A stretch of 64,000 bases of DNA, from the NCBI RefSeq assembly GCF_030376605.1, contig NZ_JARRAE010000001.1, forward strand, positions 62,001 through 126,000, in the 5' to 3' direction. Made by a program: the position numbers and the translations under genes. The number at the start of each line of letters is the position of its first letter. Position 1 is the stretch's first letter. Positions 15,869-20,485 of the stretch are shown piece after piece. Source of the DNA: Pseudochrobactrum sp. sp1633 (GTDB taxonomy: Bacteria > Pseudomonadota > Alphaproteobacteria > Rhizobiales > Rhizobiaceae). The notes below the pieces were generated by a model that made no database searches, was not told the DNA's origin, and saw nothing but the letters and a program-made list of their open reading frames with translations.

Positions 15869-16681
15869 TTAAATTGATTTTTGATTATGTGGCTGTTGCG
15901 TTGTGTCTGCCAGACCCGGCCAGTAAAAAGCGTCCGCTGTCGGGCGGGCGCCGAAAATAGCCTGACCGACACGCACAACATCGGCACCTTCTTCAATTGC
16001 TGCTTCAAAATCGCCGGACATGCCCATAGAGAGCTGCGTGAACCCGGAATGGCTGCGCACAGCACGATCACGCAATGCTCTCAGCAAACGGAAGCAGGGG
16101 CGTACCCGATCAAGGTCAGAGCTGAATAGTGCCAGTGTCATCAACCCGCGTGGTTTCAAGCGCGGATAATCGGGCAGGCGCTCGATGAAGGGCAGCAGAT
16201 CATCAGGATGCAGGCCATATTTGCTCTCTTCACCGGATGTGTTGACCTGAGCGAAGACATCAAGATCACGGTTTTCTGCGTCCAGCCTGCGGTTGAGCTC
16301 TTCCGCCAGCCGGATGCTGTCGAGCGCATGAAATTCTGTGGCAAAGCGGGTGAGATATTTCACCTTATTGGTCTGGAGGTGGCCGATAATGCTCCAGTGA
16401 ATGGCAAGATCATCAAGTTCAGCCCGTTTGTCACGGGCTTCCTGCAGCTTGTTCTCACCGAAATCAGAAATACCAGCGGCAAATGCATAGCGCAGAATAT
16501 GAGCGGGAACCGTTTTGGTGACGGGTAGCAAACGCACATTTTCTGGTTTGCGCCCACTGCGCAAGGCAGCCGCAGCGATACGCTCCTGAACAAGTTGCAG
16601 GTTTTGCGCAAAACGTGCGGCAGGCGTTTCACCAAAGCGGGCAATGTCTTCGGCAGAAAGTTCTGTTGGCAGGTTACTCAT
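15869..16681 (-). CDS. yggS: YggS family pyridoxal phosphate homeostasis protein (PLPBP)
   Basis: 270-residue alanine-racemase-fold protein that binds PLP without a known enzymatic reaction and buffers cellular PLP. Marks are LLPVTKTVPAHILRYAFAAG (PLP Lys in VTKT, residue about 55), FGENKLQEARDKRAEL, WSIIGHLQTNKVKYL, VNTSGEESKYGL, and the phosphate-binding C-terminus LSMGMSGDFEAAIEEGADVVRVGQAIFG. It lies about 120 bases from the end of the MocR gene on the same strand. Three PLP-related genes (yggS, mocR, pdxY) therefore cluster here, which may be functional rather than accidental. Confidence 0.93.
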   Translation of the reverse strand: MSNLPTELSAEDIARFGETPAARFAQNLQLVQERIAAAALRSGRKPENVRLLPVTKTVPAHILRYAFAAGISDFGENKLQEARDKRAELDDLAIHWSIIGHLQTNKVKYLTRFATEFHALDSIRLAEELNRRLDAENRDLDVFAQVNTSGEESKYGLHPDDLLPFIERLPDYPRLKPRGLMTLALFSSDLDRVRPCFRLLRALRDRAVRSHSGFTQLSMGMSGDFEAAIEEGADVVRVGQAIFGARPTADAFYWPGLADTTQQPHNQKSI

Positions 16682-16802: not shown

Positions 16803-18335
16803 TCAGACTTTGATAGTCTGAAAAGCAGTGCTGAGCTTTTTAACGGCGATCTCAAGTTCTGCAGGCGTATAGGCGGCAAAGCCCATCAGAAAACCGGCTT
16901 TGCCGGTGCCGGATGCATGCAGCGGCGTCAGCCCCAGCAGTTCAATACCAACCCGCCGTGCTGCATCAATCGCTGCCCGTTCGGAGATGTTACATGTCAG
17001 CACGCAAGGCATTTGCAGGCCTCCGATGGGAATGCGCGGTTCAACAAAAGCGCTGAGATGTGTTTGCACAAGTCTGGTAAGCGCTTCAAGCCGCTCGGCA
17101 TAGATGCTGCGCATGGCGCGGATATGGGCGCCGAAATGCCCGCCTTCCATGAAGCGGGCGAGGGTAAGCTGAGCAACTGATGCCGTGTGCCCGTCGAGCA
17201 GCGTGCGGGCGACTGTCATCGGTTTGACGAGCTGCGGCGGCAGGACGATGTAGCCAATGCGCAGACCCGGAAACAGCGATTTGGTGAAAGTGCCGATATA
17301 GATTGTGCGGTCATGGGGATCGAGACCCTGCACACAGGCTGTGGGTTTGCCGGTGTAGCGGAACTCACTGTCGTAATCGTCTTCGATAATCCACGCCTGA
17401 TGACGGGCTGCCCATTCGATCAATGCAAGACGTCTGTCGAGTGCCAGTGTCACGCCGGTAGGAAACTGATGAGACGGAGTGAGAAACACTGCTTTCGCTC
17501 TGTGGGGCTCATCCAGAATTTTCTCTGCCACAATGCCCTGCCGGTCAACGGATACGGGAACAGAAATCAGCCCCGCAGCATCAAATGCTCTGCGCGCACC
17601 ATAATAGGCAGGGTCTTCAATGAATATGCTGTCTCCGGCATCCAGCAGCATATTGGCGCATAAGGTCAGCGCTTGCTGAGAGCTTGTGAGCACAAGCACA
17701 CGGTCGGCAGTGGCGCGTGCACCACGTTCAAGGTTTACATAATCGGCAATCGCCCGTCGCAGTGGCTCGGCTCCCTGCGGATCGCCGTGCAGGAGAGCCT
17801 GTGTGCCGGTTTCCTTGAGAACCTGCCGCTCCAGCCGCTCCCAGAGCTGGATTGGAAAGCTGCGCGTTTCCGGCAGTCCCGGTGCGAAGGGGCGGGGCGT
17901 GAGTTGCTCACGAACACCACCGCTGCGGAACATGGCATTGCCACGATTGCTTAAATTCGGTGCCTGATTGCGGGCCAGGGCATCACGTTGTGACAGCCTG
18001 CGTCCGGTAGTGAAGTCGGTCATTTGCGCGACAAAACTGCCGCTGCCCACACGGCGTTCGATGAAGCCTTCAGCGTGGAGCTGCGTATAAGCGGCTTCGA
18101 TTGTATCGCGCGATACATCAAGCGATTTTGCCAATGCGCGTGAGGCAGGCAATGGTTTGCCGGAACTGAGTGCGCCGTCAACTATCAGCTGCCGGATTGC
18201 CCGTTGAATCCGTGCATGCAGCGGCATTGCCGCATGCGCGGGGTGAGCAATCCATGCCTTTACGGATTCGAGTTGGGAGTGCCTGAACAAATGGTCTGAC
18301 CAAAATAATAAAAGTGGATGGGTATAACAGACCAT
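16803..18335 (-). CDS. MocR/PdxR-type GntR regulator with aminotransferase domain
   Basis: A GntR winged helix (PLHARIQRAIRQLIVDGALSSGKPLPASRALAKSLDVSRDTIEAAY) is joined to a fold-type I aminotransferase domain that senses PLP. The PLP-binding Lys lies in TFTKSLFPG, and IIEDDYDSEFRY carries the Asp that contacts the pyridine nitrogen. MocR proteins bind DNA as domain-swapped dimers and respond to PLP or an amino acid-PLP adduct. The gene is divergent from a BenE-type transporter and pdxY, so it probably controls vitamin B6 salvage. The start is uncertain: ATG 18335 lies inside a perfect inverted repeat and upstream of the predicted transcription start, so TTG 18290 or ATG 18227 may be the real one. 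Confidence 0.85.
   Translation of the reverse strand: MVCYTHPLLLFWSDHLFRHSQLESVKAWIAHPAHAAMPLHARIQRAIRQLIVDGALSSGKPLPASRALAKSLDVSRDTIEAAYTQLHAEGFIERRVGSGSFVAQMTDFTTGRRLSQRDALARNQAPNLSNRGNAMFRSGGVREQLTPRPFAPGLPETRSFPIQLWERLERQVLKETGTQALLHGDPQGAEPLRRAIADYVNLERGARATADRVLVLTSSQQALTLCANMLLDAGDSIFIEDPAYYGARRAFDAAGLISVPVSVDRQGIVAEKILDEPHRAKAVFLTPSHQFPTGVTLALDRRLALIEWAARHQAWIIEDDYDSEFRYTGKPTACVQGLDPHDRTIYIGTFTKSLFPGLRIGYIVLPPQLVKPMTVARTLLDGHTASVAQLTLARFMEGGHFGAHIRAMRSIYAERLEALTRLVQTHLSAFVEPRIPIGGLQMPCVLTCNISERAAIDAARRVGIELLGLTPLHASGTGKAGFLMGFAAYTPAELEIAVKKLSTAFQTIKV
18291..18335. promoter_or_regulatory. Candidate MocR operator: perfect inverted repeat
   Basis: ATGGTCTG (18291-18298) and CAGACCAT (18328-18335) form an 8-bp perfect inverted repeat with a 29-base spacer; centres are 37 bases apart. 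The left half also forms GGTCtGACC. A minus-strand promoter TTGACT (18353-18348), 18-base spacer, TGTTAT (18329-18324) places the right half-site over the spacer and -10 edge, as expected for autorepression. This is inference from sequence only. Confidence 0.5.
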
Positions 18336-18413
18336 TTTCAGATTAAGAGTCAAGCCGCCCTGTGGCTGATGCTTGCAGCACAGGGCGCAGACTTTCAGGA
18401 GAGCCCGCACATT

Positions 18414-19640
18414 ATGTCCAGTACACCGCCATCCTCGCCCATTCGTCTCAGTGACCTGCCTCATCCGGTTGTTGCTGGTCTGATTTCCGTGATTGTTAAT
18501 TACGGAGGCACATTTATTCTGGTTTTTCAGGCTGCAAAAATTGCCGGCCTCAGCCCTGAACTCACAGCCTCATGGGTATGGTCTGTTTCCATAGGTGTCG
18601 GGCTGACAGGGCTGTTTCTGAGCTGGCGTACCCGTGAGCCGATCATCACCGCATGGTCAACACCGGCAGCGGCCTTTCTCGTCACTGCGCTGGCAACAAC
18701 ACCTTATGCGGAAGCTGTAGGTGCTTACATTATTTCAGCGCTTGCCTTTGTCGCTCTGGGATTGTCCGGTTATTTTGAGAAGGTGATCCGGTTGATACCG
18801 CCCAGTATCGCTTCCGGCCTGCTGGCTGGTATTCTGCTGCAATTCGGCATCGGCGCTTTTGGCAGCGCGACGATTGATCCGCTGCTGGTTGGCGGGCTGA
18901 TCGTGACTTATGTTTTGCTCAAGCGTTTCACCGCGCGCTATGCAGTTGTGGGCATATTGGTTCTTGGCGTCATCTTTTTGATTGTGCAGGGGCGGGTGGA
19001 TTTATCCAATCTTAGCCTCGCGCTAGCGGCACCGGTATTTACCATGCCGGTCTTCTCGCTGAATGCGCTGCTCAGTGTCGCGCTGCCGCTGTTTCTTATC
19101 ACTCTGACCGGCCAATATATGCCGGGTATGCTGGTGCTACGGAATGACGGTTTTAAAACCAGTGCCAATCCGATTGTGACGGTTACAGGTTTAGGCTCGC
19201 TGATCATGGCGCCATTCGGCTCCCATGCTTTTAACATTGCGGCGATTACAGCGGCTATTGCTACGGGAAAAGAAGCGCATGAAGACCCGCGCAAACGCTG
19301 GATTGCCGGTATTGCTGCGGGTATTTTCTATGTTCTGGTCGGTGTGTTCGGCGTGACTCTTGCCGCTGTCTTCATGGCTTTTCCCGCGACCTTCATCACC
19401 ACGCTGGCGGGGCTTGCCTTGCTTGGCACCATTGGTGGCAGTCTGGCCGGAGCGATGGCCGATGCGAAAACCCGTGAAGCTGCGCTGATAACCTTTCTTG
19501 CCTCGGCAGCGAATATTAATCTGCTGGGTATTGGTGGAGCGTTCTGGGGGCTTGTCATCGGTCTCGTAGCTTATGCCGTATTGAACGGACGTCTGCTGCA
19601 GCGTGAGGCGCTTGTATCAGCTAAAGAAGGAGCAAAGTGA
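18414..19640 (+). CDS. BenE family (benzoate/H+ symporter type) transporter, probably for a B6 vitamer
   Basis: About 408 residues with roughly twelve membrane segments. It opens with LPHPVVAGLISVIVNYGGTFILVFQAA and contains WSTPAAAFLV and PSIASGLLAGILLQFGIGAF. The substrate-site segment is FLITLTGQYMPGMLVLRNDGFKT, and APFGSHAFNIAAITAAIATGKEAHEDP follows. All are typical of BenE proteins, which belong to the NAT/SulP-like 7+7 inverted-repeat transporters. The start is ATG 18414 with AGGAG upstream. The stop overlaps the pdxY start as TGATG. Coupling to pyridoxal kinase and a divergent PLP-binding regulator argue that it imports pyridoxal, pyridoxine or pyridoxamine rather than benzoate. No aromatic catabolism genes are nearby. 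Confidence 0.85.
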   Translation: MSSTPPSSPIRLSDLPHPVVAGLISVIVNYGGTFILVFQAAKIAGLSPELTASWVWSVSIGVGLTGLFLSWRTREPIITAWSTPAAAFLVTALATTPYAEAVGAYIISALAFVALGLSGYFEKVIRLIPPSIASGLLAGILLQFGIGAFGSATIDPLLVGGLIVTYVLLKRFTARYAVVGILVLGVIFLIVQGRVDLSNLSLALAAPVFTMPVFSLNALLSVALPLFLITLTGQYMPGMLVLRNDGFKTSANPIVTVTGLGSLIMAPFGSHAFNIAAITAAIATGKEAHEDPRKRWIAGIAAGIFYVLVGVFGVTLAAVFMAFPATFITTLAGLALLGTIGGSLAGAMADAKTREAALITFLASAANINLLGIGGAFWGLVIGLVAYAVLNGRLLQREALVSAKEGAK

Positions 19641-20485
19641 TGCCGCAATCGCTATCAATGCAAACATCTGTCATTTCCATTCAAAGTCAGGTTGTCTATG
19701 GCCATGTCGGCAACAGCGCCGCAGTGTTGCCGATGCAGGCACGCGGGCTGAATGTTGCGGCTGTTCCCACAACATTGCTTTCCAACCACCCGGGCTATGC
19801 AACAATGCGCGGCCGCGTGCTTGAGCCGGAGCTGGTGAGTGATCTGCTGCGTGGTGTGGAGGAGCGGGGGCTGATTGAAACCAGCCGCTATATCGTCTCC
19901 GGTTATCTCGGATCGCGTGCCAATGGTGAGGTTGTTGCGGATTTCGTTAAACGGGCGCGAAAGATAAATCCGGAAATCACCTATATTTGCGATCCGGTGA
20001 TGGGTGATACCGGATTGGGTGTTTTTGTTGCTGATCCGGTGGTCGAGTGCATTATTAATCAGCTTGTGCCGCTTGCCGATCTCTTAACGCCCAATCAGTT
20101 TGAGGTCGGGCTGATTACGAAGAGCGAGCCGACATCTTTTGCAGTGATGGAAGAAAAAGTGCGGCAGATACAGGTGTTTAATAATGCGCGTGTGGTGGCA
20201 ACAGGATGCGTTTTTCCTGATACGCCCTATGGTTCTCTGGAAAATGTTGTTTTTGAAGGCGCATTACAGACAAGACTGACATCGCCGCGCGTGCCGGTTG
20301 TACCGGTGGGGACGGGGGATCTCTTCACCGGACTTCTCACCGCTGATCTTGTGCATGGCTGTTCTTTAACGGATGCCGCGCGCAATGCTGCGGCCACAGT
20401 GCTCAGGGTTGTCGGGCGAATGGCCGCGCACGGAGAGCAGGAAATGCAGTTGGGTAGTGCAATTGATGCGCTGCTGTCTGATTAA
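19640..20485 (+). CDS. pdxY: Pyridoxal kinase PdxY
   Basis: 281-residue ribokinase-fold kinase that phosphorylates pyridoxal to PLP with ATP in the salvage pathway. Family marks are VISIQSQVVYGHVGNSAAVLPMQ at the N-terminus (substrate site), YICDPVMGDTGLGVFV, LADLLTPNQFEVGLI and the catalytic VPVGTGDLFTGLLTADL (anion hole and Asp in GTGD). The ATG at 19640 overlaps the transporter stop by one base, and AAGGAG (19626-19631) serves it. It is translationally coupled to the BenE-type gene. A 12-pair hairpin ends the operon. Confidence 0.93.
   Translation: MPQSLSMQTSVISIQSQVVYGHVGNSAAVLPMQARGLNVAAVPTTLLSNHPGYATMRGRVLEPELVSDLLRGVEERGLIETSRYIVSGYLGSRANGEVVADFVKRARKINPEITYICDPVMGDTGLGVFVADPVVECIINQLVPLADLLTPNQFEVGLITKSEPTSFAVMEEKVRQIQVFNNARVVATGCVFPDTPYGSLENVVFEGALQTRLTSPRVPVVPVGTGDLFTGLLTADLVHGCSLTDAARNAAATVLRVVGRMAAHGEQEMQLGSAIDALLSD

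Follow-up and report, generated by a model that had tools for sequence, protein, structure and literature searches.

A BenE-family permease within a predicted PdxR regulon of Pseudochrobactrum: candidate short form of a widespread pyridoxal phosphate-homeostasis cassette

In a 64,000-nucleotide stretch of the genome of Pseudochrobactrum sp. sp1633 (contig NZ_JARRAE010000001.1, positions 62,001–126,000; hereafter the window), a MocR-type regulator and YggS are encoded on the minus strand. Divergent from them, the plus strand carries benE, for a BenE-family permease, and pdxY, for a pyridoxal kinase. We regard it as established by comparative evidence that the BenE subfamily present here belongs to a regulon linked to pyridoxal 5'-phosphate (PLP), and the transporter probably handles vitamin B6. 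With moderate confidence, we interpret the locus as the short form of a widespread, mobile, PdxR-regulated cassette for PLP homeostasis in which BenE moves a B6 vitamer. The MocR/PdxR protein would bind an operator of three boxes located between the divergent units, read the cellular level of PLP and control BenE. For BenE, the most probable role is that of a permease coupled to H+, with a B6 vitamer (pyridoxal, pyridoxine or pyridoxamine) or a closely related pyridine as substrate; PdxY, the coupled kinase, would trap the vitamer as its phosphate, and YggS would buffer or deliver PLP. We infer operator binding, PLP as effector, the direction of transport and B6 as substrate from sequence comparison, and we take import as the default, since BenE proteins are named as H+ symporters and their gene is often followed by that of a kinase.

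The initial annotation of this DNA, made from its letters alone, had asked for a search for other BenE genes next to MocR or pdxY and for conservation of the adjacency beyond the species; both were found, the latter in three bacterial classes. A scan of named genomes returned 463 BenE relatives, and we analyzed the best 80 loci, from alpha-, beta- and gammaproteobacteria (82–91% identity). A divergent MocR gene was present upstream of benE in 77 of these 80, a count of loci and not of independent events, with repeated genera included (four loci are from Pseudochrobactrum or near it). MocR adjoined BenE, within 500 bases, at 70 loci, SerC lay between them at six and another gene at one (L057); L101, L113 and L122 had no divergent MocR upstream. 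By comparison, neither MocR nor PdxY was observed within 1.5 kb of any of 24 other BenE genes (23 from other genera, one from the same genus), which were at most 42% identical to that of the window and were viewed over 1.5 kb, while cassette loci were viewed over up to 7 kb. Chance adjacency was rejected on this difference.

Among 61 genomes near the window's, the order MocR-BenE-PdxY was found in five of the six others of the genus; the sixth, which supplied the same-genus control above, was 61% complete. The nearest named loci were those of P. kiredjianiae and P. saccharolyticum, with BenE 91% identical. This near-genome sample had suggested a trait of the genus only, and conservation within the species alone was rejected by the named-genome scan and by a class sample of 289 genomes, in which three genomes outside the order, not chosen for any BenE pairing, had a BenE 79% identical and, in all three, a divergent MocR. 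Plasmid records (43) divided into 21 with a BenE 74–90% identical and 22 with one under 60%, the best among the matches listed being 47.5%. A quick tree of 90 rows placed the 81 cassette BenE proteins together as one side of a branch with a support of 99*. By these comparisons, the cassette BenE is a sharply set-off subfamily, and its tree points to transfer of the cassette between classes, with at least 10 class changes needed for the three classes as assigned from record titles.

Individual loci showed further variation. The six loci with SerC between MocR and BenE (L079, L083, L095, L097, L112 and L114) are all from Pseudomonas. Their MocR proteins, together with those from nine further loci, of which eight are labelled Pseudomonas and one Delftia, scored 524–552 bits against that of the window and form a second lineage of regulators paired with this BenE; the remaining MocR proteins scored 745 bits or more (one truncated). 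A record titled Bacillus subtilis strain SK6B4 (L054, 1–15233) holds the full Pseudochrobactrum locus and looks mislabelled. On a Rhodococcus plasmid (L141, 4495–7182), a MocR gene lies divergent to a BenE 41% identical, the MocR itself being 28% identical, so that MocR-BenE pairs also occur outside the proteobacterial subfamily.

The region between the divergent units holds a predicted operator of two direct boxes and an inverted one (Table 1), reported in PMC5320631 as the most frequent MocR motif structure (245 regulons). Of 78 regions, made up of the window and 77 loci, 59 carried this three-box pattern, compared with a mean of 2.94 and a maximum of 6 in 100 rounds of shuffling; the pattern was derived from the same regions in which it was counted, and the controls were shuffles of those regions. 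The 23/36-base spacing of the boxes was constant in 57 of the 59 pattern-bearing regions. Many of the 19 regions with no match had weaker boxes by eye. The exact form TGGTCTG-N26..31-CAGRCCA, which spans the outer two boxes, occurs once in the genome, at the operator in the window. Box 1 lies directly against the TTG at which MocR starts, and boxes 2 and 3 immediately precede the probable benE promoter; from these positions, both autoregulation of MocR and control of benE are expected.

Pfam and NCBIfam models, together with the gene layout, confirmed the divergent MocR facing BenE and the yggS beside the regulator that had been proposed initially. The MocR protein has a winged helix-turn-helix domain of the GntR type (PF00392) fused to an aminotransferase-like domain (Aminotran_1_2, PF00155), and it scored 409 bits against the NCBIfam PdxR model NF052282 (cut-off 320). 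The rhizopine MocR model gave a higher score, 430 bits, which is under its own cut-off of 650. The regulator contains GTFTKS, which we take to be the PLP-lysine motif; this motif is kept in 75 of 77 MocR relatives (two misses). A gene of PLP metabolism, pdxY, stands in the operon divergent from MocR, one of the features by which PdxR-type regulons are recognized. The assignment of the permease to the BenE family also held, with 439.8 bits for PF03594 and 396.1 bits for TIGR00843, both over cut-off, and the protein is 81–91% identical to 46 aligned relatives. PdxY scored 206 bits against TIGR00687 (cut-off 144.5) and 243.5 bits, under the cut-off of 292, against the stricter PdxY equivalog NF004398.

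That BenE is an ordinary benzoate/H+ symporter, located beside B6 genes by chance, would agree with its membership in PF03594 and TIGR00843, and we consider it very improbable. A BenE linked to benABCD in Diaphorobacter (L139) belongs to the same family and is 44–45% identical to three cassette members. It also has the QYxPG segment, which we had considered as a hallmark of the cassette BenE and dropped on finding it common to both. Its listed neighbors include no MocR, in contrast to the cassette genes. A chance neighborhood is further opposed by linkage and an operator conserved in three classes and by the absence of MocR and PdxY from the surroundings of the 24 other BenE genes. The initial annotation's statement that benzoate catabolic genes are lacking agrees with our search of the genome for BenA, in which nothing passed the cut-off (a single weak match reached 97 bits against 781), other benzoate routes, including that through benzoyl-CoA, not having been tested. 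It is likely that the cassette BenE departs from the benzoate name of its family. Other kinds of BenE were also noted. Five loci (L036, L037, L038, L039 and L138) have a BenE 41–46% identical to the window's beside a divergent XRE-type regulator, annotated in L138 and read from sequence in the others, and no MocR was seen; this is a second repeated pairing of BenE with a regulator. The second BenE gene of the genome (L042, 7945–9087) comes after a gene like those of alpha/beta hydrolases; pheST is upstream and apparent trp genes are downstream, and by eye no B6 or benzoate gene was seen around it.

The genes that accompany MocR and BenE provided additional data on function. A fuller alphaproteobacterial form, YggS-GlyA-MocR / BenE-PdxY, was found at L081, L111, L115 and L132, and at L088 with apparent fragments of YggS and GlyA. 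The beta- and gammaproteobacterial form is MocR / BenE-YggS-(GNAT or amidotransferase or neither)-PdxK-ArgD-TrpB-TrpA-GlyA (L058, L089, L092 and L104). With a 700-base gap rule and a 60-bit floor, by which some genes are missed (e.g., the kinase of L085) and fragments are included (the ALAS of L081 and the YggS of L088), the 80 clusters contained MocR in 76, YggS in 35, GlyA in 32, ArgD in 27, PdxY or PdxK in 16 and an amidotransferase in 13. Rarer members were SerC (6), MFS proteins (6), TrpB with TrpA (4), ALAS (3, two full and one fragment) and GNAT proteins (3). The NCBIfam names for ArgD, TrpB, serine hydroxymethyltransferase (SHMT), SerC, ALAS and PdxK rest on one or two representatives each; PdxK was named by its model on one protein and by identity on the others.

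The B6 kinase beside BenE is PdxY in alphaproteobacteria and PdxK in beta- and gammaproteobacteria. Eight cassette kinases that were compared are 28–34% identical across the two kinds and 28–33% identical to the other kinase of the window genome; the simplest explanation is two separate recruitments of a B6 kinase next to one and the same transporter. Between the two forms, GlyA proteins are 54–55% identical, compared with 82–88% within each group, and the kinase and GlyA functions appear to have been gathered beside this transporter on two occasions. The gene that follows benE starts within 4 bases of its stop codon in 10 of 10 cases for PdxY, 24 of 25 for YggS and 8 of 9 for ArgD (0 of 1 each for the amidotransferase and GlyA), counted by adjacency at 46 loci; at 31 loci no named gene followed benE on the same strand, and at three there was only a distant one. 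In the window, this is the TGATG junction reported initially, in which the benE stop (19638–19640) overlaps the pdxY ATG (19640–19642). The double recruitment, and the start near the benE stop whichever of the three genes follows, make the link to B6 hard to dismiss. An alphaproteobacterial YggS-PdxY pair was also observed with no BenE nearby (L040, 7038–8461), 52–58% identical to cassette YggS and 54–55% to alphaproteobacterial cassette PdxY.

Both yggS and pdxY in the window are second, divergent copies in the genome. Another contig has a second kinase (C54:208580) and a second YggS (C54:182915), which are 33% and 39% identical to their counterparts in the window. By comparison, the window PdxY is 68–73% identical to that of three other alphaproteobacterial cassettes, and the window YggS is 70–78% identical to that of four. 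The presence of another YggS led us to reject the idea that yggS is a mere housekeeping neighbor. Extra copies were also found for the anabolic enzymes of longer cassettes. Searched with cassette GlyA, 19 of 20 hosts had two or more GlyA proteins, the exception being the host of L085, where the called genes include no cassette GlyA. In 13 beta- and gammaproteobacterial hosts, the cassette-type GlyA was 82–86% identical to the query (100% in the query's own host) and the other full copies 51–73%. For TrpB, the cassette type was 87–88% identical in four of four hosts versus 54–68% for other copies, weaker partial matches aside.

Several observations weigh against B6 movement as the role of the cassette. 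The window genome holds PdxJ and PdxA, and its host should make PLP de novo; PdxJ was present in 20 of 20 other cassette hosts (21 of 21 with that of the window). On this basis, B6 uptake should not be needed for growth. A B6 kinase was counted in only 16 of the 80 clusters, four of them Pseudochrobactrum or near it, and many alphaproteobacterial loci consist of MocR and BenE alone. Cassette YggS of the alpha- and beta/gammaproteobacterial forms is 54–61% alike, with no double recruitment. No solved relative of BenE was found by sequence, and its AlphaFold model, with a pLDDT (predicted local distance difference test) of 46, was not used. Nutrient uptake by itself does not account for the spare anabolic PLP enzymes. 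The most economical function for the cassette BenE would be movement of a B6 vitamer. The spare PLP enzymes, the mobility of the cassette and the prototrophy of its hosts do not follow from B6 feeding, and this leaves room for a reading that involves stress, in which a drop in PLP, whether by starvation or by a poison, would turn on the supply of cofactor together with a second complement of these enzymes.

Long cassettes were found on the conjugative plasmids pBYT1-1, pBYT5-1 and pKAZ5. In pBYT1-1 and pBYT5-1, the cassette lies between a relaxase gene and traG. In pKAZ5, annotated SerC and HisC (phosphoserine and histidinol-phosphate aminotransferases; L134, 1867–3584), two more PLP enzymes, lie upstream of it. 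Plasmid pKAZ5 also has the predicted resistance genes tmexCD-toprJ, qnrS2 and sul2. A near-identical short form, BenE-ArgD-GlyA, is present in Solimonas, Extensimonas and Luteimonas, flanked by relaxase-like and integrase-like genes (read from sequence, with no model search), and it rides what reads as elements like integrative and conjugative elements (ICEs).

A wider interpretation, which we hold tentatively and would not yet lean on, is that the cassette is a mobile insurance for PLP. A PLP-sensing MocR would control a B6-related permease, a B6 kinase, YggS and, in varying combinations, spare anabolic PLP enzymes (SHMT, acetylornithine aminotransferase, tryptophan synthase, phosphoserine aminotransferase and ALA (5-aminolevulinate) synthase), spread on conjugative plasmids and ICEs against PLP loss or the poisoning of PLP enzymes, with Pseudochrobactrum having the short form. 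Such a cassette would parallel the spare cofactor-economizing paralogues that are switched on in zinc starvation. A further possibility, which we judge unlikely, is that the cassette serves tolerance to poisons of PLP or of PLP enzymes: a fall in PLP would free MocR, leading to expression of the spare enzymes, B6 kinase, YggS and a permease that either exports the poison or imports B6. The anabolic enzymes, amidotransferase, MFS pump and GNAT proteins counted in the clusters agree with tolerance, as do the extra copies of GlyA and TrpB, the location of cassettes on conjugative plasmids and ICE-like elements and the PdxJ of all 20 hosts. However, no compound is known, many clusters have only MocR and BenE, the Pseudochrobactrum form has no spare anabolic enzyme, and YggS and the kinase are also compatible with plain salvage. 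The spare enzymes also keep the PLP-lysine motif (ArgD 26/27, SerC 6/6, TrpB 5/5 and GlyA 26/30, the ArgD and SerC patterns having been fitted after viewing the sequences) and are thus not PLP-free replacements.

BenE might also move an amino compound that is the ligand of MocR together with PLP, as gamma-aminobutyrate is for GabR, with the neighboring PLP enzymes acting on it. The PLP-lysine motif in nearly all MocR relatives would suit this, other MocR groups bind amino ligands (GabR), and BenE also occurs in MocR regulons of unknown metabolic function, according to PMC5320631; the Rhodococcus plasmid likewise pairs a distant MocR with a distant BenE. The neighbors, however, are mixed anabolic enzymes (for glycine, arginine, tryptophan, serine and haem) of no single pathway, plus a B6 kinase and YggS, and we consider an amino ligand improbable.

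Vitamin B6 uptake had been proposed in the initial annotation, which set it against the family's name. Strong support for a link to B6 and to a regulator of the PLP-binding type comes from the conserved pairing, the conserved operator, the two kinases and the extra-copy yggS and pdxY, and departure from the family name is likely, but the idea is not new: it was printed as a prediction in 2016 (Suvorova & Rodionov, PMC5320631). That paper lists the same gene families in PdxR regulons, which resemble our loci in their regulator group (PdxR, within MocR) and their two direct boxes and one inverted box, and suggests (section 10) that certain MocR regulons respond to metabolic damage by PLP enzymes. 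In the literature searched, we found no test of the prediction and no other relevant paper that joins BenE with B6. In the main text of PMC5320631, the strings "Brucell", "plasmid" and "antimetabolite" do not occur, and, as far as available, no statement on extra copies or mobility was found. That long versions carry extra PLP-dependent anabolic enzymes and ride conjugative plasmids or ICE-like elements is apparently new, as no paper describing the long mobile cassette was found in the literature searched. Among known systems, PdxR-PdxKU of Streptococcus pyogenes (PMC11619246) is alike in combining a PdxR regulator, a B6 kinase and a candidate B6 transporter, but its host is Gram-positive and its transporter, PdxU (COG4720, and PF07155 by PMC9997740), is of a family other than BenE. 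The P5PA transporter for PLP is, according to PMC9997740, one of few bacterial B6 transporters with a verified substrate; it is a binding-protein ABC system, whereas the cassette BenE is of the secondary permease type. The same source states that B6 importers are unknown in most species, including E. coli and B. subtilis, and the words BenE and benzoate are absent from its main text.

The features of the locus are listed in Table 1. The block is flanked by radC on one side and by map and sfsA on the other. MocR probably starts at the TTG at 18290, and not as in the listed open reading frame (16803–18464), which covers the promoter; the TTG adjoins operator box 1, and 62 of 77 relatives have an equivalent start position, the other 15 being Pseudomonas and Delftia proteins of the other MocR lineage. 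As judged by homology, the start of benE is probably at 18414 and not at 18318.

Table 1. Features of the yggS-MocR / benE-pdxY locus (positions in the window).
Feature	Position	Strand	Basis
yggS, PLP-binding protein family (COG0325)	15869–16681	minus	TIGR00044, 172 bits
MocR/PdxR-type regulator, 495 aa, probable TTG start	16803–18290	minus	PF00392 and PF00155, NF052282
Three-box operator (predicted)	18292–18336	plus	Pattern count versus shuffled regions
Box 1, TGGTCTG	18292–18298		
Box 2, TGGATGGG	18315–18322		
Box 3 (inverted), CAGACCAT	18328–18335		
benE, BenE-family permease, PdxR-linked subfamily	18414–19640	plus	PF03594, 440 bits
pdxY, pyridoxal kinase	19640–20485	plus	TIGR00687, over cut-off

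A BenE subfamily with a fixed regulator, an operator and often a kinase is a sharp candidate for a B6 transporter, and its recognition could correct the label "benzoate transporter" on several hundred loci (463 relatives). If the long plasmid-borne versions are in truth a device of tolerance to poisons of PLP enzymes, they would represent a little-noticed kind of mobile stress cassette.

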